Below are positions 1,284 to 16,022 of a stretch of DNA of 64,000 nucleotides, in pieces. The translations under genes and the position numbers were made by a program. The DNA lies in assembly GCA_027919835.1 (NCBI GenBank), contig JANVFP010000017.1, positions 868,001-932,000 on the forward strand. The letters run 5' to 3'. The stretch is from Lentinula raphanica. Taxonomy: Eukaryota; Basidiomycota; Agaricomycetes; Agaricales; Omphalotaceae. How positions within the stretch are numbered: position 1 is the stretch's first letter; each line of letters opens with the position of its first letter. Under the pieces are notes generated by a model. It did no database searches. It had not been told where the DNA came from and was given only the letters and a program-made list of their open reading frames with translations.

Positions 1284-1861
1284 TCATGATCGTTCGCCTC
1301 TCAACCTACGGGCCAAAGCAAGATCCTTGGGCTGGATGGTGACACGCTTAGCGTGGATGGCAGCCAAGTTGGTGTCTTCGAAGAGCGAGACAAGATACGC
1401 CTCGGCAGCTTCCTGGAGAGCCATAACAGCAGAAGATTGGAAACGGAGGTCCGTCTACAGCACAATGAACATCAGCAAAAGGAGATCATCCGAAAAAAGT
1501 CATACACACCTTGAAGTCCTGAGCAATCTCACGTACAAGACGTTGGAAAGGAAGCTTGCGGATAAGCAACTCCGTCGACTTTTGGTAACGTCTGATTTCA
1601 CGAAGAGCGACAGTTCCAGGCCTGAACCTGTGAGGCTTCTTGACACCACCAGCGGCGGTCTACATTACAATGAGTACAGGAAGCAATAAAAATCAAGTGG
1701 CACGCACAGCAGTCTTTCTAGCGGCAGATTTGGCGGACTTAGACGCCAGTTGTTTACGAGGAGCCTTTCCTGGAGACAAGAGTTGGAAACAAAGAAAAAT
1801 AGAGGTATCAGAGGCGCGTACCTCCAGTGGATTTACGAGCGGTCTGTTTAGTACGGGCCAT
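1284..1861 (-). CDS. Histone H3 (lone copy)
   Basis: This is a core nucleosome histone. There are four exons on the minus strand: 1861-1822, 1769-1708, 1659-1510 and 1454-1284. The introns (52, 48 and 55 nt) sit at the same codons as in the second H3 gene at 33 kb. The product is 140 aa, four longer than the usual 136, because the N-tail carries an extra SAKS-like block between the KQLA segment and the AARKT motif (K27 region), with Thr where Ser28 normally sits. The histone fold is conventional, with the motifs [24 protein letters not shown] and LRGERS. It is divergent from the GRF gene, with about 630 bp between starts. Its promoter matches that of the other H3. Confidence is very high for identity and high for the exon borders. 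Confidence 0.95.
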
Positions 1862-2494
1862 AGAGGTAGAAATTCAAGTGTTTGTGATGAAAGAAGGGTG
1901 GACTTGGTGGTGGTAGTAGTCGAAGAGTGAGTTGAGGTTTGTTTGCCCCTGAGACCGTTGAATTTATGCAAACGCGACGCGATGGCTCTCACGTGATTGG
2001 AACGCGTTGAACGAATTACCAGCACAGCCACCTCTTGAATCTCGAGATCGACTAGTACAGTACTTCACAGAAGCTCGGAGTTTTCCCCTTCTTTCAACTG
2101 AAATACAAGTCCGCACTAATATTTGTATGCTTGCGTAATCTTCTTCTTGTCATCTTATTGCGCAATCGCTGGCGCTTATGTCTTAAGCGCCCGCGCGCGC
2201 GCCCCTGTCCCGCTTTGTGCGCGTTTCTGTCCTATTTAGGCCTGTTGTACTTTTTGGCATATCTCTGGCTTCTTTTTTATTGAATAAATTTTTTTGCTCT
2301 TCTGTGAATCCAAAATCGATGTGTTGACGCCTCGTGTGTTCCCCAGTCAGCAGGTAAATTTTCATGGACTTCGGCAGGTATCCAGGGTCTTGTTTTCAGT
2401 TAAAAGCTCTGCTCTTTTTCGATTCCCTTTTCCCCCACCTTTTTTCGACCCACCTTTCTGGCCCTGTGAAGATTCGTCTCGTCTCTTAGCCCTC
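1862..2494. promoter_or_regulatory. Divergent H3 / GRF-gene intergenic region with histone promoter module
   Basis: Read toward H3 on the minus strand, 2011-1961 holds TCAACGCG, ATCACGTG, CATCGCGTCG and a TGCATAAAT TATA-like box. The order and spacing match those upstream of the 33-kb H3 gene. Nearer the GRF gene there is an alternating CG run at about 2188-2202 and T/C-rich pyrimidine tracts (2270-2460), as often seen upstream of fungal start codons. Role assignment is inference from the shared motif order. Confidence 0.6.
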
Positions 2495-4103
2495 ATGTCG
2501 TTCATCCACCAGCCCCACTCCGTTGAGATCACCCCGTTCGGTATTCCAACCTATGACTACGGCCTTCAACGTCGGGTCTATCGATACTGGTCAGTGATCC
2601 TTTTATGCACCAAGTTCAGTAAATGTGAAGCTCGTTTGACATTACAGGCCACTTGATCGCACTCAGAGGCCTGTCCCAATCAAACGTCTTTGGGCGATCA
2701 GAAAATACCACCTCGACGAATGGGACATCTTTTGCGACTGCACACCACTCCCGGGTACCTTTGGTATTCCTGCTCGTATCTGGACCGTCAGCCAAACGAC
2801 TTCGCGTTTCTATGGCCGCACCTTCATAGGGTGCGGAAAACATCGGTGCGCCTTCAAAGGTATCGTGGTTCATCCCGTCTACTATCTACAGCCTCTGATC
2901 ATCTCCTTCGATTCCAGCATGCCTTGATGATATTTACACCAGTGTACTTGCTTTGGGGCCGTTTCCCAACCCTAACTACCCTCCTCCTCCCACCCCGCCT
3001 ACCCCTCCTGCCACCAATGTCCCATTACATCCGGAGATCGACCGTTCGTCTCCACTCCCTTCATCCCCACTTCCCTCCGCAGACAACAATGGGGCCTCTA
3101 TCCCCAGTCCGGAACCTGCCTCTCAAGAATCAGTGGACCCTCAAGCAATCCTCGATGAAATCTGGGCCGCTTTCCAGGAATACGACGAAAATCCAGTCCA
3201 GCAAGGTGCCTGTTTGTTTGATTCTTCCTAACATGCATGATCTCTGACTATTGCCTCTGATTCAGAACTCGTTCAGTTGTTTGCTGGACAACGGGATGTC
3301 ATTATCACCCCGGACGGCGCTATCCATTTTGAGCCCGACTTGTTCCCCCAAAACGACGCCTCGACTCTGGACCAAGGAATTCGCAACGGTCCAGCAGTTC
3401 CATCTTCGACCAGCGGTAAGTCTAATCAGTGACTTTCGAGCAGTCTATATTGAATCACATTTTGTTTTTCCAGAAGAAAACATCGATGAATTGTACGACG
3501 GAGTCGACGGCGACATTACGCTTGTAGATATAGACCTCAACGATGTCAAACGCGATGTCGGCAAGGGAAAGCTCAAAGACAAGGGTCTTCACGAGTCCCG
3601 GACGAGTCATACCTGTGACCTGACCTGCAGGTATTTTGCCTCCAACATCCTGACCTGTGACCTGTTGCTGACCTGTGCTCACAGGTACCTGACCTGCGGG
3701 TCCAGGTATACCTGCAAGTAATTTGGCAATACCTGCAGGTTACCTGGACCTGTCCCTATAAAATAATTTCCTGAGTCTGACCTGTGACCTGTCATGACCT
3801 GTGCATACAGGTACCTGGACCTGCGGGTCACAAAACCTGCAGGTATTCCCACGGATCTTACCTGCGAGTACTCACAGGTTACCTGACCTGCTGAAGACCC
3901 TTACTCAAAGATGGTAAGTTTTTGCCGTACCTTCTGATGAACACGAACACAATCCTTACACTGACTTTACAGAATATGTCCTTCCCGGAAATGGAACGAA
4001 AGTCAAGCCTTACGATCTAACAACCCAAAAATTCCTATTCATCGAGCTTTGCGATACTTGCGGCAACGATGTCGAGGATCACGACGCAACAGCGTGTGTG
4101 TAG
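2495..4103 (+). pseudogene. GRF-type zinc-finger protein gene interrupted by a MITE
   Basis: Exons fit 2495-2589, 2648-2859, 2918-3205, 3266-3415, 3474-3579 (then the MITE), a 3912-3913 remnant and 3973-4103. The N-terminal half (about residues 60-105) has a CDC pair, then a YGRTFIGC core and a CAFK end. This fits the GRF zinc finger, a single-stranded nucleic-acid-binding module with a Cys/His pattern around GRxFxxC. A Pro-rich linker and an acidic segment follow. The last exon ends in a short Cys-pair tail (CDTCGND). The 324-bp insertion at 3580-3903 sits inside exon 5. Reading on into it gives a stop at 3719-3721, which removes the C-terminal exon. If the insertion and one target copy are ignored, exon 5 joins the 3914 donor in frame, so the gene was intact before insertion. 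The allele may still yield a truncated protein. The biological role is unknown. Confidence 0.7.
3580..3903. mobile_element. hAT-like MITE, 324 bp, with 8-bp target duplication
   Basis: The element is flanked by CTCAAAGA at 3572-3579 and again at 3904-3911, an 8-bp direct duplication as made by hAT-superfamily transposases. Its ends are inverted repeats: AAGGGTCTTCA at the left and TGAAGACCCTT at the right, with the outermost base mismatched. The interior has no coding capacity and is packed with ACCTG/CAGGT pentamers in both orientations, resembling subterminal transposase-binding repeats. It lies inside an exon of the GRF gene. The non-autonomous nature is clear; assignment to hAT rests on the TSD length and the C/T-A-A-G-G-G terminus. 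Confidence 0.88.
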
Positions 4104-4655
4104 GCATCCCGGGGTTGTTGTGAAAAGTAGTTTACTTGTTATTCTACTCACAATGTTGCTATTTGAATCTTGTTGAATGTATCCTTTTCTTGTCGAGATA
4201 GAAGCACACTTCATATTTGCTGTACGTAGCCTTTTGTAGCTACATAAAACATGAATTCTATCTCTCTTGAAACAATCGCGCGTACTACAGTCAAACAAGA
4301 ACAATATAGCTTCTGAGATCTCCCTTGAATACGTTACCGAGCTTTGCACGACGATAGACGCATATGGCAGGGCTCGAGCGTCGTTGATTACCTTGTGAAC
4401 GCAGCGATTTTTCGTTCGACACGGTTTGAGATGCTTGGTGGTCGACCGGCGTTGATAATTTTCCGCACCGATATTCATTGGTGGCAGGCGCAGTTCTGAT
4501 GCTTGGGAGTTGAGGGAGTGTGAAGAGGGGCTTGGCTTGCACAGGCTTGATCCTGATGTGAGTACGACTGGGAGGCTTGTGGCGATAGACCCAAGATAGA
4601 CCTAGAATACGAGTAGAAGGACTTAAGATTTCATATCGCGTTTAGCGCCGGTATT
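4104..4655. other. Intergenic, no supported gene
   Basis: This lies between the GRF gene and the TET/JBP locus. Minus-strand ORFs here (up to 147 codons) have no recognisable domain and unconvincing composition. The left border of any mobile unit carrying the TET/JBP gene may lie here, but I found no terminal inverted repeat. Confidence 0.3.
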
Positions 4656-5376
4656 TTGTATCACGTGCACGCGTTTGTTTGTTTTTTGATATGTTTTCGA
4701 CAGTGCCACCGCCAAAAGCACTCTTGTCCTCAACCACTGCCTACCACAAAGCCTTCAAACCAGAAATATATTCGCCCCCCTTCCACTTTCTACGACAACG
4801 GGCCTTGGCTGCCGCTCCCACAACCAACACCGTACGCGATTGCAGCTCCATTCCACTTGTACCCAACAAAACCCTTGCAGACCACCCTCGTTTTATTAGG
4901 TGCCTTCACCACCCCCTCCGTCTTCCCCTCGACCTCGCTGCCAATTCCTACGAAGGATCTTTCTCCATCTTTCTCAGAAAGGGTTTGGAACGCCATTAAA
5001 CAAGACCTGTCCGCTTTATCAAAAGCGTCGCGTTATACCGCGTCGAACACGTTGGGTCGGCCTCGAGTATCCAGGCAAGCAGAACACCTATACCCCTTGT
5101 ATGTGTGGAGGGGGCTGTCAGAAACTGGGCAGTGCAGGATCAATGATTCTGCCCAGAAGGATCTAACTGCATTGCCCAGGGGAAGACTGGTTCCAGCATC
5201 CACACTTGGGGGGGCCCTTGACCGTTGGCTTCTGATACAAATACTTGCATTTAGGAAAAATCGGCCGCGTTACTTTCCGATCGCTGGTTTTGCCGGGGGC
5301 ATGGGTTATACTTTGCGCTCCTCGGTGCGGGCTAACGTTTCATCTCTGCTTTATCTACCTCTAACAAATGTTCTAG
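4656..5376 (+). other. Probable 5' exon region of the TET/JBP-like gene
   Basis: One frame is open for over 700 nt (4656-5381), with a Pro-rich stretch followed by a Lys/Ser-rich segment around 4950-5050. A second frame starts with an ATG at 4691 in the sequence MFSTVPPPK. A strong donor, GTATGT, sits at 5099, and candidate acceptors end at 5376 and 5389, before the well-supported exon. I could not join any upstream frame to that exon unambiguously, so the true start codon is unresolved. Confidence 0.35.
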
Positions 5377-6833
5377 TTTAAGCCTACAGGCGTTCAACCA
5401 CTTACACCCCTCTCACCTTTCAACTTTGCCTTGCTCCTCAAAGCCGCTGTCTCCGAAACCCTCTCGGAAAACGAATCCGATACAGAAGATGACGCGGCGG
5501 AGAATTCCACTAACGAAAATGCACCGACAGCTGTCGAAGCTTGTGCAACGGCCTCCCCTGCTCCTGTCGAAGAGGATCTACTGCAGATCGTAGCGCCTAG
5601 TAAACGAAAGACCCAGAACAAGTCCAACGCCAAACGAGCAAAAAAACGGCGCTTGCATGCCACTGTGGGCCCTTCGGCGGGCACGATCTCGCAGGTTCTT
5701 TCCCATGGTACTTGCGTCGAAGTCGAACTGGACGCCAGCCAATTCGACAGCGCCAGAGGAGCCCATACCGGCAAACCTGGGACGGCGGCAAAACTGGGAT
5801 CACAGGCGGAAATACGCAAGGAATATAGCGTCCAGGAACTGCTTGAACTGGGATTTGAGCACATTCAGTGGGATGGGGTGTACGTCAGTTCACAACGCCC
5901 TTGTACTGACCTGACTTTGCTCCATAGAACCCCAATTCCCATAGTCGACAGATCTGGGAGAATTATAGCCGTTCTCGCAGGTCAACCCGGATCGGATTAC
6001 GCCCAAGAATTGCTCGAAGCGTTCCGTCTCTTTGCGGATGCGGGTGAAGAGGCAGGGTTAAGACCAGAACAGGCCGGTGGTCCTCACAAACGGGGTGCAT
6101 TTCCTGCATTCAACCGCGGCGTGACCATGGGGATGGGGAGCGCCACTCCTGTTGCACTCCAGACGGGTTTCATGGGCCCGATTCTTGATCGACTGGTTGG
6201 TCATAAGGCCGTGGCTCGTATGGCGACATATCAGGATGGTGAGTCGTCATCTTGTTTTGCTTGTCACCTGTACTCAAGTGAAGCAACCTTGCAGCAGCAT
6301 TCTCACTCTGGGCCCCCCGGGTTTATGCTGAATACCAACAAACCACTGAGGTCATGCGCCTCAAGCTTCCACATTTACCTACCAACTTTCCCTCGAGTGT
6401 ATTTTCAGCCGCCGCTTTCAACCTTGGTGGCAAAGTTTGGACTTTCAAACACCGGGATTTTCTCAACTGGCCATTCGGATGGTGCGCCATCACTGCACTC
6501 GGAAAGTTCGACCCGCGTCGAAGCGCTTGCCTTGTTCTCTGGGAGTTGAAACTCATCGTAGATTTCCCGCATGCTGCTACAGTCCTCATTCCTTCGTTGG
6601 TTATCACACATTCCAACACGCCTGTCCACCCAAATGACGTCCGCATGTCCTTTACCCAATATACCGCAGGTTCTATCTTTCGTTGGGTCGAGAATGGGTG
6701 TATGACTGAAAGGGAGTTGGAACAGCTGGATCCTGAGCGATTTGCAAAGATGCAAGATAGCAAGGATACGGCTTACTTACAGCGTCTCAGTAACTTTTCG
6801 ACCATTGATGAATTGTTAGATAGAACAAATTGA
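5377..6833 (+). CDS. TET/JBP-like 2-oxoglutarate/Fe(II) dioxygenase (5' end unresolved)
   Basis: Three exons are supported: 5377 (or 5390) to 5879, 5928-6238 and 6295-6833, with introns GTACGT...CCATAG and GTGAGT...TTGCAG. The first part is acidic and then Lys/Arg-rich (KRAKKRR, a likely nuclear signal). The catalytic double-stranded beta-helix is near the C-terminus. It has an H-R-D iron motif in FKHRDFLN, the distal iron ligand in ITHSNTP, and a 2-oxoglutarate-binding Arg in VRMSFTQYTAG followed by FRWVENG. This arrangement matches the fungal TET/JBP expansion, whose members oxidise 5-methylcytosine or thymine in DNA and are linked to transposons in basidiomycetes. All predicted catalytic residues are present and the ORF is uninterrupted. 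It runs tail-to-tail with the MULE gene, 16 bases between stops. Whether it acts on DNA or RNA cannot be told from sequence. Confidence 0.72.
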
Positions 6834-6849
6834 ATTACAGTTACTACTG

Positions 6850-9800
6850 CTATAGATTTCCATGCGAGGCCTTCCGCTTCTGTTTGGCTTCCGGCGATGG
6901 AGCTCTCAGTTGAAGTCGAGATCGTTTGGGTACTTGGCGATCAAAGGAAGATCGAGTCGATTCGACATTCATTGGTGCATGTGCATTATGAGAAACACTG
7001 AGCTGCACGAGCTGTGATGAGATTGAATCGATAACGTTCCGAAACTCATTCAGCTGGTTGGAATCTGGTAAGGATGAGGCCTCTTTCAACAAAAGCTCCA
7101 GACCGTGGAGTTTGGGCTGGAGGGTAACTACTTCCTGAGTTACACGGTGGCTTATCTGCTCGTTGATGGCTGCCTTTTGACCTGCGTAAAATACCTGTGA
7201 ATTTGTGAAACTCAGAACAGTGACCTCGGAGATATTCAAGAAACATACCGTCGGTTGGAGCTGGAACCCACTGGCATTTACCTCCGAGTCATCGCCGTAT
7301 ATATCAGAGTCAACATCGCTGCTTGAATTGGAGGTTGTATTCCAATCACCTACGGAATTGGATGCACCCCCCAAAATGGTGTCATCGTTAGCCAGAGCTT
7401 GTAAGTCCGCCCAATTGTCCAAAGTGGTGTCACTTGGAAGGATAGTTGGAGGGAGAGACTTGGGTGTCGATGTAGTCGAAGTCAATGAGTCAATTTGTGA
7501 ACGGTTGAGATCTTGTGCAATAGCCAGAGTCGGTGGGTAGTTCAATGGAATATAAAGACCCCGACTAACCCAGCCATCTATGAGTAACCGAAACGCCCGG
7601 AGATGTTTGCACGCGCCACCGCGGTTGAAGAAATCTAGACAGGAGCAAGATCCCACCCCATTTCGACAGAGTTTCAAGTCATAGCCGGGAGATTCAGGAT
7701 GGGACGAGGCACAGTTTGCAATGAAGATGTCTGAGTTAGAGTTTTCAAATGTGACGCCCGATATTTTCTGTAGATACAGAATTTCTCGGGCTTGCTGATC
7801 TCGGGTAGTATCTGGAATCCACCAACAGACGCTACGGAGTGCACGGGCGTGTTCGTCTTTTGATGCAGCAAGTGCTTCTTGAAGCTGAAATATATTTCGA
7901 CCGCCAGCATCTTCGAAGAAACGCGAATTGAGCCATTGAGAGTAATCCCGCATTGCTCGACGTCGACTATAGATGTGGGGTAGGATTTGAGTAATCAAAA
8001 GGAATATGAGGAGATCGAAACGAAGGCGATGACCGGAGTGAAGATGCTGGTTAATGAACTTCCGTTTCAGAATGGCATTGAACGATTCGAGATGGTTGGT
8101 CGTCGGGATAATACCTTCAATAGGTATCCGGATTACAGCTGCAGCAGCAAGTCGACCCCATTCCGACCAGCTCTGCCAGAGAGATAAACTCATCCAAAAC
8201 TGATCAAGATATCTGAGGTGTTCTAAACCGGCATCTGCTGCACGTTTCCCTTCGGAATGACTGCTAAGTAGCTTGTTCAGGAATGCGCGGTTTGTTTCGA
8301 TCAGATTCACGGCGCTAGTATGCTCAACACTGGATATAAGTCTAGGAAGTATCAGAGCAGTAGTCTGGGCATAAGAATAAACACAACGTACTGAACTTCA
8401 AGAGTGTATAAGGTGTTTCGAACAAGGTCCTTCCAGTAGTCTGGCCCATTGAACCGGAATAGCTTTTTTCGATTGTTTGTCCAGCATTGTCGAAGGTGAA
8501 ATTTGCAAATGAGGAGGATAATACGAGGCCATACAACTGTGAGTGCGTTCCGCTCTTTGGTATCGGTATCGGTTATGCAGGAATATGGCTCGAAAGACCC
8601 AAACCGGTCTACCAAATGGGCCTTCCAAGCTCCCAAAAGTTTCGTCAAGATACTACTATCATACGAGGCATGTGTTGCCTTAGCATTTGCAGAGGCAGAG
8701 AAAAGCAAGAACGCAATGGGGATACCCTTCCGGTCTGCATCCACAGCAAGGGCGATGAACAGAAGTAGACGGGAGCTGCAAATACCAAAGGTGCCATCAA
8801 GGACTAGCTGAGAGTGGTGGGCGTATTGCTGAGCGGCATCATCCATCTCCGCAGTAGAGATACATATCTCAAAGCGGTCTCCAGCCTCTGCTCGTGCAGA
8901 GTAGTGAAAGACTGCTTTCGAAATCTCTGAGTTGTATCGAGGGCTGTTAGGATTAAGCCACTCATCAACGTTGTATTGTGGAAGCTCCCGAGCATCAACA
9001 CCGAGTTTTCGAGCAGCTTTTCGGTAAAGGGTGCTATGATCGGAGGGAAGAAATAGGTAACGAACATTTGCGGAGGTTGGATCGTAGGTGTTCATATCGT
9101 GATAGAGCTTATTAGCTATCATATCACGATTTTTGTCTTGAATAGCTGTGATGCTAATGATTACAGTGCAAGAACAATACGAATCAGAGAGGGAGAAGTT
9201 GTCTAGCCAGTAATCTATACTATACCTTGATCCGCTTTGGAGTTGCTGCAAGGCAACTTCATACACATGCTCGTGTAAAGGGATGGGTGGACAACGCTCG
9301 AGGAAGGCTGCCTGACAAGCACCATTGTGCTCTAAGACTCCAGCAATCCAGGATACCGATCCGTCGTCCTTTTTGACCACTTCAACGTGGGCATTGCAGC
9401 TGTTAAAGGGATACGGAGTGCGTCGTTTCCAATCTTCTGAGGTTCGCTTCGCTCCTTTGGCTTCATCTCGAAGCTGGCGGGCTTTGGAATCATAACCGCA
9501 TCCACTTTTTCAAGCAAGGTATTAGTTAATGAGGGTCAACTGTTATTAGGGCCTACCATTGGAAAAGAATACGCTGGGTGGATCCCGAACGTGCGGAAGT
9601 ACAAATACTCCAACGATTTTCTAAATCCTTACGGGCAGATCGATCCAAGTTCAGTTCTGCTAATTTCGCAGCAGCAGCTTCTTGGTCCGTCTCTGTGTAC
9701 TCACGCTCGAAGTGCTTTCGGAGCTCATATATGTCTTTTATCTGCAATCGCTGCTCCTCCGAGATGCATAGTTTGTGAAATGCAACCTGTAAGATGTTCA

Positions 9801-10043
9801 ACTCAGGTGTTGGTTCCAGTGATCAGTGACATGTTACCTTTTTCATGCGTTTAGGATTCAGCGGAGGCAGAGATTGGGCAAGGTCCATCCAACGCATAGA
9901 AGGTGTCGGTACATCGATCTGTTGTCCCTATCTCTTTGTTTTGAGGCAGTCAGTTTGCCATTCTTACAGCGACTTACTACGAGAACAGACGGTGCAAATG
10001 GACTCATTTCTCCGAGCCCATCAAGCGAGAAGGCTTTTGACAT
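6850..10043 (-). CDS. MULE-superfamily transposase
   Basis: Exons run 10043-9978, 9927-9838, 9786-9557, 9504-9226, 9153-8392, 8329-7249 and 7194-6850, giving about 950 aa. Two of the introns (9225-9154 and 7248-7195) are multiples of three, so they could also be retained. The N-terminal third has a Cys/His cluster (CGCGYD ... CNAH) like FAR1/MULE DNA-binding fingers. The catalytic region has the MULE hallmark LDGTFG, followed by a second Asp in CITDTD and the CKFHLRQCW block. The C-terminal third has a SWIM zinc finger (CSCLDFFNRGGACKH), then an acidic and Ser-rich tail. It presumably mobilises its own element by a DDE mechanism. No disabling stop or frameshift was found, so it may be active. 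Terminal inverted repeats were not identified. Confidence 0.82.
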
Positions 10044-11336
10044 AAGTATACTGTAGAAGAGAGTGTTCAGAGCAACGCGCCAACCATCTCTCAAAGGGCC
10101 GACTTCGAACTGCTTGTTCTCCTGCCAGACTCTTCTGTCCCGCGGAGTTCTGTTTTGCAAAACCCACTTCCACATGGACGTTCTCATCGAAGATACATCG
10201 GAGTCTCTTCTCTTCGCGATATCTTCCCTGAAAGCTTCTACAGGACCGGAGATCTCGCTTCCCTGATAGGCAGGGGCGCAGGAGGGGCGGGAACGGCGGT
10301 ATCACATGATACCACGTGAGCGTAATTACATAATAATGCTGATACTATTTTGATTATGAGCTCTTACAAATCCTGACTAATTTTGGCGCGGGCTTCGCTT
10401 GCCTTTCAACTATTGGATACGTCGACGTTGGGCTAGAATTTCCTGAACTACATTTGGCCGAGCTCCTGGATATCTCTCAAGTCTCTTGTCACCAGACTCG
10501 TGATGTAGCAAGGGCTTCCGGCGGAAGTGTAGTATATGTATAATGTAATCTACCAGCGCTGAGCGAGTGGACGAAATCGCTCAGACCGTGTACTATGTGG
10601 TCCTGTTGCACAGAGTCAGCTCTCGCCAACTGGATTTAACTGGATACTCTATGTACTCTCGTGTATGTGTTAGTCTGTTGTCTGAGAAAATCCATTTGGA
10701 CTTTCTCGGAAAACATCACACGAGTCATTGGTGACATCTGGTAGGTTTATGTGAGTGTGTTGGTGAAGCACGTCAGACTGAAGTAGGTGTTCAAGAACAG
10801 GCCCCTCAGCTTATGCTGCAGAGAGGAATTGGAAACTGTTGCTTGCAGCTTAATGGTTCTGGTGGACACATATATCGGAAGCCTGAGCTCGTTCACCCAT
10901 ATTCTTTCTGGCTCTGTGCAGATCATATATCGTACCCTGCTACAGAGCGCACAGATAGAAGTCTGACTCTGATACTTCAAATTTGCGTATAGAATCATCG
11001 CAAAACAGCCAAGGTAGGACGAGTCCACTTCGATTATAGACTATTATAGACTCGGAGGACACCAGATCAGGAAGGTTGTTTGGAAAGGCTCTTGATACAA
11101 CTCATAGAGGCGAATGGTGTTATAGAGAAGTCACACAAACAGATAAGATAGAGGACGGGTGTTATGGTCGGTGTAAGTATCGGAAATAGTAAGCTTGGAG
11201 GGAAGATAAAAGACGGTTGACATACTAGTGAGTCAACGTACACAAAGAAGAGGCCCGTGTCGGTTATGTCGTATACTGAGAGGTAATAAGCGAGTTCAGT
11301 AAGGGATGAGTACTGAGTGGTGCCATGTATCTTTGG
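10044..11336. other. Intergenic, possible degraded LTR sequence
   Basis: No gene is supported. The first 300 bp is the presumed MULE promoter, including an imperfect palindrome ggtatcacatgatacc followed by CACGTG at about 10297-10318. Around 10604-10728 a TG...CA-bounded stretch is followed by TTGGTGACATCTGG, which resembles the leader just inside Copia LTRs. This could be a relic LTR but has no partner here. The stretch ends with TTTGG (11332-11336), the left target duplication of the Copia element. Confidence 0.3.
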
Positions 11337-11765: not shown

Positions 11766-14700
11766 CTAGGCGCATGCATCGCCTCGAATCGAAAGCCCCA
11801 TTCGTCTGACCTGAGTCGCGTGGAGTGTCGCTCCCAAGGGCTTCGTTAGGATGTCTGCCAGGTTTTCCTCGGATGGTACATAATCGATTGAAATCTCCTT
11901 CCTCTCGACAGCATCCCGCAAGAAGTGATATCGTATGTCGATATGTTTAACACGCGCATGAAATTTCGGATTGCGAGAAAGGGTGATCGACCCTTGGTTA
12001 TCGCCCTTGAGTCGGCATGGAAGAGGAACATCGTGCCCGATTTCAGAAAGGAATTGGTGAACCCACTTAGCCTGTTGGGAGCCCTTTGCTAACGCTATGT
12101 ATTCGGCCTCTGTGGTCGAAAGAGCGACAACGTCCTGACGCTTGGACGACCAGAATGTTGGTCCACCGGCCATCACGGTGAGGATTCCGGTGACAGATCG
12201 CCTCGAGTCGACACATGATGCGTAGTCCGAGTCTACGAAGGTTACGGGTTCAAGACCTTCTCTCGAGTCTCGTCGATAGGTGATACCATGAGTCTTGGTA
12301 CCGATTAGGTAGCGTATCAAGTGGATCAAGGCGTTCCAGTGAGGACGTCCGGGATTATGCGTGAAACGGCTAAGTAGATTTGTGGCAAAGGCTATGTCGG
12401 GTCTACAGGCGGCCTGACCAAACTGGATCGCTCCTAAGATCTCGCCGTATGGTTTGTCCTTCATGAAGAGAGTATCGTCTTCATTCTGTGGAGACTGAGC
12501 AGTCGAGAGGGATAGACCAAGCGGGAGAGGAGTCTTCTTCGGCTTCATATCCTGGAGACCATGCTTGAGGAAAAGTCTGTCCCAGTACGCCTCCATGGAG
12601 AGGGTAGCGGTTCCCTCGACCCGGTCATGGGTGAGGTGCATCCCTAGGGCGAACTGAACGCTGTCCGTGTCTTTCGTCCTATATTTCTCACCAATCTCCT
12701 TCTTTGCCCTCAACATCTCTTCCTTCGATGATGATCCACCCAGAGTATCGTCAGTATACGTGCCTGTTATTGTCTCCCCTAACTCTGAAACTTTCCTTCT
12801 AACACACTGGTCCGCCTGTGATCTTTCGTACCCAAGGTCTTTGTATGCTGCGTCGAGGGTGAACCACCAGTTACGTCCGGCTTGCATAGTTCCGTAGATG
12901 GACTTCTTCAACCTCATCACCTTCCCAGTCTTTCTTCCCTCGTATCCCTCTGGAGGCCATACGTAGATTTCCTCGTCGAGTTCGGCATTGAGGTAAGCGG
13001 AAGCGAAGTCAATTTGCCAGATGTGGTAGCCTAGAGTGACCCACAAAGCGATCAGCATACGAAGAGATTCAAACCGCATGACTGCAGCAAACGTCTCATA
13101 ATAATCCTTTCCTGCCTCTTGCTTTCCGCCATTTACAACTAACCGAGCCTTCTCGTCCACGATATCCCCTTTCCCATTGAGCTTGTGAGCGAAGACCCAT
13201 AAGGGAACAAGAATGGTTGCGTTGGGGGGAGGATCTTGAAGGTCACCGAAAACGCCGAATTCCTTCATTCGTTCTATCTCTTTTTGGATCGCGCCTTCCC
13301 ACCTCATAGGATCCTCCATAGCGGCCGAATAACTCTTTGGGATTGGTGGAATTCCCATCGCTACCAAGGCGATATTGAAGCTGCAGTCAACCTCGCCGAA
13401 CTTGTCGATAATCTTGGCTAAGTTCGCAGTATGGGTCGAGATCCCAGCCCATTCCTCCCCTGCTTCTCGAGCTTCTTCCTCTCGTCTCTCCGAGTCCTTC
13501 GAAGCGATTATTGCAGAAGTTTGAGTGCGGTGTCTCGTTGATCGTCGAAGAGGGATTGTGGAAGTACGTGGCGCAACAGTTTCGTCGAAATCTGGGGTTG
13601 GTTGAGGCTCGTGGTGAGAAATTTGATCGGAAGTATTTGGCATTGGATCTCGGACTTTGTCGTCGAATGGCACTCGTACGTCTTCGTTCCCTTCATCATA
13701 CTGCTCCCCTCCATTCGGCTCCAAAGTTCTGTTTCCTCGTCCTTCCTCAAATTCCACGTCGCGGCTCTCTACAATCTCCCCTGACTTCGTGTATAAAAGG
13801 TAAGTTCCTCGTTCCACATACCCAATCATCTTCCCCTCTACCGCTCTAACGTCTGTTTTTCCAGGTTTCCCATCCACAATCGTCGCCCATCCCCTAGCCC
13901 CAAATGGTCGAAGGTGAGAAACGTCTTGTCGTTTCTTCGTCCAGAGTTCAGCCGGAATTTGGAAGTTAGCTCGGGTCGAAGGAAGAAGATTTTCGGTGTA
14001 GGTTGCATAAGCTGCTGCATATAACCACATGGAGGGAGGAAGGCCAGAGTCGTTAAGGAGGGTACGGACTTTATCAAAGGTGGTGCGATGTTTTCGTTCT
14101 GCAACCCCATTCGCCGCTGACGAGTAGGCAGGAATTCGTTCCAACTTGATTCCATGCTTCTTTGCCCACTCTCGCCAAAGCTGGTTATCGAACTCTCCTC
14201 CTCCATCGATTCGGACGCACAAGAGCCTTTCTCCAGTAACATTTTCAGCCATGACTCTGTATTCCTCCATCACACCTACTGTCGTTTCAGCTTCCTTGTT
14301 CTTCAGATAGTAATCTTTTGCGAACGCCGATTTCCCATCCACGATCGGCATCGTATACACAAAGCCACCTCGCGCCGGCGTCCTCATCGGTCCAGTAAGA
14401 TCGGTGTGTACTCTTTCCAACAGCCGCGATTCTCGTTCCACCACAGCATCGAAGGGCCTCCTAGTGGCTTTGCCCATGAGACAATCGACGCACTTTCCTG
14501 ACACAGTCGTACTCGTGACGTTAAGCCCATCGACAAGATTCTTCTTCAACATCATCTCTATCCTCGACAGGCCTGCATGTGACAACCTTCGGTGCCAGGT
14601 TTCCATGTCGGTAGGTTTATCTAAAGAACGAGCTAAGGCTGCCACCGAAACTGGATCGTTTTTCTTCTCCATCAACCGATATAGTCTCCCAGATCCGTAC

Positions 14701-16022
14701 CCGGTCAAGAAATGAACTCCCTGTGGTGAAAAGAACCTAGCTTGGCCGTTCCCGAACAGGATATGGTATCCAAGCTGGTCTAATCGTCCAACAGAAACGA
14801 GGTCGGATGTGATGTTTGGAGCATGGAGTGCATTGTCGAAGGTAAGGACTATTTCTTTATTTCCTTCATACAACGTTTTACGCGCCCTCCCTTTTCCGAT
14901 GATTTCGAAGGATGTATTTTGTTCAGATGACTGACCGGTGGACTTATAGGGTTCATAGGAGATGAAGTCGGAGCGGTTACGGAAGAAGTGGTCAGATGCA
15001 GCCGAATCAGCGAATACGGATCCGTTGTCCTGTAGAGAGGTAGCCATCATAGCGTAATGCTGAGGCACGTCGGTAACAGTCAGATTTGCACTCGATGATG
15101 CCGAAGTCTCCTTCTTCCCTCGCCACCAGGATGGATACTGGCCTTCCTTCCCACCTCCTTTCCGATAACAGTCCTCTTTGACATGACCTTTCCGACCACA
15201 GTTAGTACACTCCTTGTCGCTCTTCTGCCCTTTCACCGCTAACTGAGCACTTAATTTCCTCTCCAGTTCCTCGATCTTTGAAGCAAGATGCGCCTGCGAT
15301 GCGATCTGATCTCCTCCTATCGACTTGTTAAAGTCCCGCTCTTCGACTCTCGAGTAGGCGAAAGTGATATGCTGGATCACAGCCGCTGGAGTACTGTTCT
15401 GAGGTAACGAGGAAACGGTTTGGATGATTGTGTCGAATTCACGAGATGGGAAAGCAGCCAGGATGATTTGGCGAAAGGTAGTATCGGTGATCTCGTTCCC
15501 AGCCTCGACGGCTTCTTTTCGTAGAACACGGAGATTTTTGAAGAAACCCTCGATGGATTCTCCTCCTTTGAAGGTATATGATCGAAGCCTTCTTTCTGTA
15601 AGGACTTTCCTCATCTCGTCTTTGGCAGCATATTCCGACTCGAAAGCCTCCATCAACTCGGAGGCCGTCAAGGAATCCGCATTTGAAATAAGCGAGGTCA
15701 GATCATCAACATAGGCCTCGATTACTCCCTTCGCTCAATCGTTTCTGAAGGTCCACTCTTCGAGTGACGGATTCGTAGAATACACCGAGGTAGGTGAGCT
15801 CGATTCGGTAGGTTTCGATGTATCGGAGGGAGAGGAGGAAATCAACGATGTAGCCTTTGGTTTCTTTATGGTGTTATCGATATAACCGGTAAGGCCCTGG
15901 GCTCTAAGCGAGTTTGCGATCTTTCTTTTGACTGGTGCCCAGCTAACTCGGACACCTCCGTCGAACTTTTGGTCCTCAGGAACCTCGGGAATGGGTGGTG
16001 GAATAGCACCGTTGCTCGCCAT
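11766..16022 (-). CDS. Copia Gag-Pol polyprotein with one in-frame stop
   Basis: The frame starts at 16022 (MASNGAIPPP) and meets a single TGA at 15737-15735. The same frame then continues open for about 1,320 codons to the TAG at 11768-11766. Domains in order are a UBN2-type gag, a CCHC knuckle (CTNCGRKGHVKEDC), and a protease with FADSAASDHF. Next comes integrase with its HHCC region (WHRRLSH...CVDC) and catalytic core (HTDLTGP, then DGGGEFDN, then a Glu in NGVAERKHR). RT follows with QIDFASAYLNA and a TYTDD active site, then RNase H (FVDSDYA, STTEAEY, KGDNQGS) ending in ENLADILTKPLG. The stop could be a fresh nonsense mutation or a readthrough signal; a fresh mutation seems more likely because no known readthrough context is evident. 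Confidence 0.93.

Follow-up and report, generated by a model that had tools for sequence, protein, structure and literature searches.

The 64,000-nucleotide stretch of contig C17 from Lentinula raphanica analysed here (the window; all coordinates are window positions, and the genome measures 49 Mb) carries a complete Mutator-like (MULE/MuDR-type) DNA transposon. The mobile unit spans positions 2100-10402, with ends common to its other copies and 9-bp target-site duplications, and holds three genes: an orphan gene that we refer to as gene A, a predicted 2-oxoglutarate- and Fe(II)-dependent (2OG-Fe(II)) dioxygenase of the TET/JBP type, and a MULE transposase (Table 1). The introns of all gene models were inferred from sequence alone. 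The dioxygenase and transposase genes are arranged tail to tail, with 16 bases between their stop codons (6831-6833 and 6852-6850, respectively), exactly as an earlier description made without database searches (hereafter the sequence-only reading) had it. That description had placed the pair at 4656-10043; the pair itself stands, but its limits do not, as the dioxygenase starts at 5301, the transposase near 10187, and the unit as a whole is wider.

Table 1. Features of the transposon in window coordinates
Feature	Position	Strand	Details
Left target-site duplication	2091..2099		CTTTCAACT; same nine bases as 10403-10411; adjoins left end
Left terminal inverted repeat, degenerate	2100..2139	+	19/30 first bases match right end, ungapped; ends common to short relatives
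Gene A, orphan third gene	2495..4103	+	Five exons before nested insertion; tail exon ~3973-4103
Short insertion nested in gene A	3580..3903		8-bp duplication CTCAAAGA at 3572-3579 and 3904-3911
Hairpin	5125..5179	+	Covarying 12-pair stem around nearly invariant 31-base inner part, 5137-5167
TET/JBP-type 2OG-Fe(II) dioxygenase (predicted)	5301..6833	+	Exons 5301-5336, 5377-5879, 5928-6238, 6295-6833; 462 residues
MULE transposase	6850..10187	-	Exons 10187-9978, 9918-9838, 9786-9557, 9504-9221, 9145-8392, 8329-6850; 1012 residues
Right terminal inverted repeat	10363..10402	-	Common to copies on C12, C18, C9, C14
Right target-site duplication	10403..10411		CTTTCAACT; equals left duplication; adjoins right end

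A DNA search of the genome with window 4400-10500 as the query recovered the gene pair on contigs C12 (84% over 5113-10403), C18 and C9, partial matches to the unit on C2, C3, C14 and C53. A set of short relatives of 1.2-1.7 kb has the same ends and no match to the three genes in that search. Since these short relatives supplied the left-end sequence, the left end of the window copy could be recognised at 2100. Five copies share one right end, gene order and orientation are the same at C12, C18 and C9, and matches to the gene A region lie in the same order on C12 and C18 and are partial on C9. The C12 copy (7,994 bp) has CAAATTGCC on either side, and the C18 copy, which is the third full one (7,967 bp), has AGCCAAGGG. 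All three long copies with both ends read thus have an exact 9-bp duplication, within the 8-11 bp that are typical of MULE/MuDR elements, and such duplications abut both ends in 12 of the 12 copies with both ends readable (three long and nine short; 11 exact, one 8/9). Eight of the nine short-copy duplications are exact and the ninth matches at 8/9, compared with a mean match of 2.6/9 and a maximum of 7 when the pairs of these nine copies are swapped. Three further short copies have a single readable end, and the inverted repeats are clearer in the short copies than in the window copy. No left end was found for C9, C2, C3 or C14 within the flanking stretches examined (for C9, up to 1480800). 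On C3 the dioxygenase looks deleted, because the hairpin and the start codon are kept but the MULE region already follows after about 150 bases.

The sequence-only reading had suggested that the two genes may form one mobile unit, to be sought through further copies, terminal inverted repeats and target-site duplications. All of these were found, the repeats being degenerate and the duplications 9 bp long, and the shared termini, the exact duplications at three full copies and further instances of the pair, both elsewhere in the genome and in other genera, bear the suggestion out: instead of lying apart at all other loci without common termini, the genes are together elsewhere and the termini are shared. 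Two separate elements could in principle have landed side by side in a genome that abounds in KDZ elements and has MULE and copia elements too. However, the termini, with shared ends and three exact duplications around the whole unit, refute chance neighbourhood, and the constant order and orientation at C12, C18 and C9 and the pairs in other genera also speak against it, leaving this explanation with a negligible probability.

The transposase matches the Pfam MULE model PF10551 (E 2e-7; 31.8 bits, cut-off 27.6), and once five inferred introns are removed its frame stays open for 1012 residues, in keeping with its earlier description as apparently intact. Reading by eye yields a candidate DDE triad, consisting of the D of LDGTFG, the D of ITDTD and the E of NHLESFN. 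The SWIM finger that had also been claimed is a candidate: a SWIM-like C-x-C...C-x-H is visible by eye, but the Pfam SWIM model gives E 0.49 on the last-exon open reading frame (ORF), below the cut-off, and no match at E 1 for the whole protein. Among the best 120 of 155 transposase relatives, about 30 carry PF04434, and the window transposase, which falls among the Agaricomycete SWIM-domain MULE transposases (PF10551/PF04434), is 36-67% identical to these 120.

The dioxygenase start is supported by the other genome copies, which likewise begin with M-x-Y-x-LRS after the same hairpin, as several Marasmius relatives similarly do. An ORF at 4656-5381 was considered as the N-terminus and rejected, given that the copies share the M-x-Y-x-LRS start at 5301 and that the long C12 DNA match does not start before 5113. 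The predicted iron and 2OG ligands, assigned by motif, are H336-x-D338, the distal H389 and R400, each at least 90% conserved in 42 sequences, so that the HRD, distal His and Arg noted previously are all present in the model. The predicted fold is nearer to TET than to other 2OG oxygenases: CcTet, NgTET1 and TET2 rank clearly ahead in the fold list, the highest-placed non-TET protein among the aligned neighbours is FTO, and no 2OG family outside TET gives a better fold match. Assignment of the enzyme to the TET/JBP type is thus supported by the structural model, and the corresponding claim of the sequence-only reading holds by fold comparison and not by direct sequence profile. The profile searches that it had called for place the transposase over the PF10551 cut-off and leave the window dioxygenase unmatched by Tet_JBP. 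Across the 42 aligned dioxygenases, Tet_JBP (PF12851) matches 3 at E 0.01 or better, and 2OG-FeII_Oxy_3 also matches 3. Judged by spacing from the HxD motif, the AG-type residues (Gly331 and Asp337 in CcTet numbering) are absent from the window enzyme, and the PE-type HxE is replaced by HRD.

Upstream of the dioxygenase, with 121 bases between its end and the ATG, lies the hairpin. Its 31-base inner part occurs at 18 genome places in a pattern search allowing up to 3 mismatches (reversed control, none), six of these falling within long or decayed units and 12 within or close to short copies (nine with both ends read), and it stays near-constant although the rest of the copies diverges by a sixth to a third. 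Compensatory change is seen in 6 of the 12 stem pairs, a level reached by 2 of 500 shuffles; the covariation score is 0.345 against 0.189 in shuffles (0/500 as high) and at most 0.145 when the stem is slid. The stem cells are 78.8% paired, and four of the pairs are open in roughly half of the distinct sequences. The folding z-score of the window hairpin is -4.75, and all five copies folded span -3.0 to -4.8. Rfam has no family for window 4400-5500 up to E 5. Because short copies without genes retain it, the hairpin probably serves the transposon in cis, whether as RNA or as DNA.

Gene A is broken in the window by a 324-bp nested insertion with inverted ends, full of ACCTG/CAGGT repeats. Its relatives among the matches listed are 7 proteins at E 0.001, all from Lentinula. 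No convincing Pfam family was found for it, one of eight sequences touching CapR at E 0.29, and its predicted structure is of low confidence (mean pLDDT 45.3). The cysteine pattern CDC...GCGKHRCAF looks zinc-binding and may resemble that of GRF zinc fingers, which no Pfam model supports.

Comparison of the window and C12 copies shows that both genes have been under purifying selection, with ratios of non-synonymous to synonymous divergence (dN/dS) of 0.14 (dioxygenase) and 0.175 (transposase). No stop occurs among the aligned C12 codons, and the indels are multiples of three apart from one base in the transposase. Identity between the two copies is 0.62-0.66 near 5113 and climbs along the unit to 0.96 at 9013-9312; the halves of the unit have probably exchanged sequence among copies, though it moves as a whole. 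Separately, window 4571-4883 is 84-86% identical to the C9 copy and is unmatched by BLAST in C12, which points to mosaic copies. C-to-T differences between copies are over-represented at CpG, which hints mildly at past methylation of such copies.

To follow the pair beyond this genome, we compared 95 listed dioxygenase relatives with 120 of 155 transposase relatives, a partner being detectable only where both proteins are listed on one contig. Seven dioxygenase/transposase pairs on the same genome and contig could be read off both tables. In four of them the locus tags differ by one or two (M. crinis-equi, Paramarasmius and two in Marasmius sp. AFHP31), and in two the tags give no distance (L. 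novae-zelandiae and Rhodocollybia); the pair thereby recurs in four genera, namely Lentinula, Rhodocollybia, Marasmius and Paramarasmius. All nine linked members in the dioxygenase tree (built without P0066, owing to its length, and without the partial C9 copy) fall in one 46-row clade with an SH-aLRT support of 90, and all ten in the transposase tree (only every fourth of P0170-P0222 included) fall in one 36-row group with a support of 95 under midpoint rooting. With unlinked rows meaning rows without a partner check, the linked members require 7 label changes on the dioxygenase tree and 6 on the transposase tree, and a single capture is therefore not established. Identities correlate across ten linked pairs (r 0.71, Mantel p 0.0002), four of which belong to this genome and two to a single other one, with the C9 dioxygenase partial. 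The between-genus order conflicts: the Marasmius AFHP31 member is nearest to Paramarasmius in the dioxygenase and to M. crinis-equi in the transposase. To judge from these trees, which are compatible with either, the association is old or has arisen repeatedly.

Within the genome, the dioxygenase family occupies 86 places after exon matches were merged by hand (92 of 119 candidates scored), some of which are pieces of one gene, and few appear in the genome's Pfam Tet_JBP listing. Four other frames carry the AG-type Gly and Asp, and the one searched matches CcTet by sequence (E 4.6e-10). Fungal TET/JBP expansions had been noted in the sequence-only reading to ride with KDZ-type transposons, with a MULE as the partner here, and the census agrees: at least 21 of the 86 places have a KDZ match no more than 5 kb away (about 2.2% of the genome is that close, among the matches listed), and 5 of 86, the window's included, have a MULE within that distance; all five are closely related to the window gene (64-96% identical to its protein). 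No KDZ transposase lies within the unit, and the nearest KDZ match on C17 among the matches listed is 484 kb off. The sister dioxygenases on C44, C51 and C4 (59-61% identity) have, among the matches listed, no MULE within 15 kb and no KDZ within 24 kb. The C44 gene (324500-334000; 59% identity), on a contig with no MULE or KDZ among the matches listed, is possibly a host-resident or differently borne TET; the long ORFs in the surrounding 9.5 kb resembled no transposase by eye, with no family search made.

The enzyme could act on transposons at large and not on the MULE's own copies in particular, a reading that fits both the adjacency of the same family to KDZ elements and the oxidised cytosine reported on many element types in Coprinopsis and Laccaria in PMC12730594. 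Yet the MULE-linked genes are the window gene's closest kin and stay beside their own transposase, and we regard non-selective action as unlikely, if still to be taken seriously.

MULEs readily capture genes, and the dioxygenase might be a passenger picked up in Pack-MULE fashion and useless to the element. The genome holds 14 MULE places, nine with the window's profile span, and these nine comprise five with the dioxygenase or a piece of it, the C3 remnant and three without it; such dioxygenase-free MULEs, and the abundance of related dioxygenases, are what a passenger would lead one to expect. A useless gene is nevertheless hard to square with a start, splice sites and catalytic residues that are kept, with a dN/dS of 0.14, with recurrence of the pair in four genera, or with the ten other transposon lineages that carry TET/JBP genes according to PMC12730594, and we consider capture without benefit very unlikely.

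The surroundings of the element were read as well. A histone H3 gene, identified by eye at ~1300-1861 (minus strand, starting at 1861), yielded no Pfam match for the 56-residue frame tried from it. As the left end of the transposon lies 239 bases upstream of the H3 ATG, the element sits in or near the histone H3 promoter. Beyond the transposon, at 11766-15671 (minus strand), a copia-type polyprotein is open over 1301 residues, with RVT_2 and gag matches and an integrase core just under the cut-off.

We think it likely that this three-gene unit is an autonomous MULE with a dioxygenase that acts against DNA methylation by the host. The transposase would move the whole unit, and the dioxygenase would oxidise a methylated DNA base, as known TET enzymes do, either on the element alone or beyond it, with 5-methylcytosine as the likeliest substrate; such oxidation could lift host silencing, allowing expression of the element's genes and cleavage at its ends. 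As a guess, targeting or regulation may be aided by the orphan protein and the hairpin. Action against the element's own methylation or silencing, which the sequence-only reading had envisaged, is plausible. A more far-reaching version, which we find unlikely, is that self-targeted demethylation evolved in a fungal Mutator lineage, with a non-AG, non-PE TET guided by the orphan protein or by the hairpin as an address tag kept in gene-less short copies, as an enzymatic counterpart of the plant protein VANC that arose independently within one and the same transposon superfamily.

Several observations weigh against an autonomous element with a methylation-countering enzyme. The MULEs at C2:355620, C20:1034024 and C35:17464 are without a related dioxygenase out to 15 kb, and the one on C3 has apparently lost its own; the M. 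tenuissimus pair lies about 1,900 tags apart on one contig and is hence unlinked; and the C12 transposase alignment holds one 1-base insertion. Synonymous divergence (dS) between the window and C12 copies is 1.03 for the dioxygenase and 0.27 for the transposase, so that the ages of the genes differ and the halves have not always travelled together. No sequence profile reaches TET directly from the window dioxygenase, with 0 Pfam families at E 10. Finally, Asn341 and Cys347 (H+5 and H+11) stand at the positions of CcTet Gly331 and Asp337, as judged by spacing from HxD and assuming no gap, and Asp337 is reported in PMC12730594 to be essential for 5-methylcytosine activity in CcTet. With both residues replaced, the substrate may differ. 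It might be N6-methyladenine, on which CcTet also acts besides 5-methylcytosine (PMC12730594), or thymine or RNA, and the place of FTO as first non-TET fold neighbour would suit such a shift along with the unfamiliar pocket. The clear lead of CcTet, NgTET1 and TET2 in the fold list speaks against this, however, and we hold another substrate to be unlikely.

With this element the Mutator superfamily joins the transposons known to carry TET/JBP enzymes, and possible self-demethylation by a transposon-borne TET becomes directly testable by methylome sequencing, because full copies, dioxygenase-less MULEs and short same-ended copies coexist in the shiitake genus. Fungal TET counts based on Pfam Tet_JBP may also be too low, since the model misses the window protein and most of its aligned relatives in a family of this size.

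Ten lineages of TET-bearing fungal DNA transposons were in print by December 2025: Kyakuja, Zisupton, Dileera, Plavaka, hAT, Harbinger, IS3EU, EnSpm, ESTA and Helitron (PMC12730594), for which counteraction of host DNA methylation has been proposed there. The element described here shares with them a TET/JBP gene beside the transposase inside a complete DNA transposon, some of those elements likewise having a third gene. It differs in being a MULE with 9-bp duplications, a superfamily outside that list, and in that its dioxygenase is neither of the AG type nor of the PE type, the two types compared. CcTet of Coprinopsis cinerea, described in the same text as close to the AG type of Kyakuja elements, is 11% identical to the window dioxygenase and has different pocket residues. 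In the open-licence literature we found no description of a MULE that carries a TET/JBP gene; the accessible text of PMC12730594 uses 'MULE' 0 times and 'MuDR' twice, in one introduction passage on other genes. The TET-type gene in a MULE is, then, a real and complete combination that we did not find in print, within a known phenomenon. A possible functional analogue exists in plants, where the MuDR-type VANDAL21 elements of Arabidopsis encode VANC, whose anti-silencing activity is demonstrated (PMC5735166, PMC10398659). Both would be Mutator-type elements bearing an anti-silencing gene of their own, proven for VANC and a candidate here; VANC is a sequence-specific binding protein, whereas the candidate encoded by the Lentinula element is a DNA-base dioxygenase.
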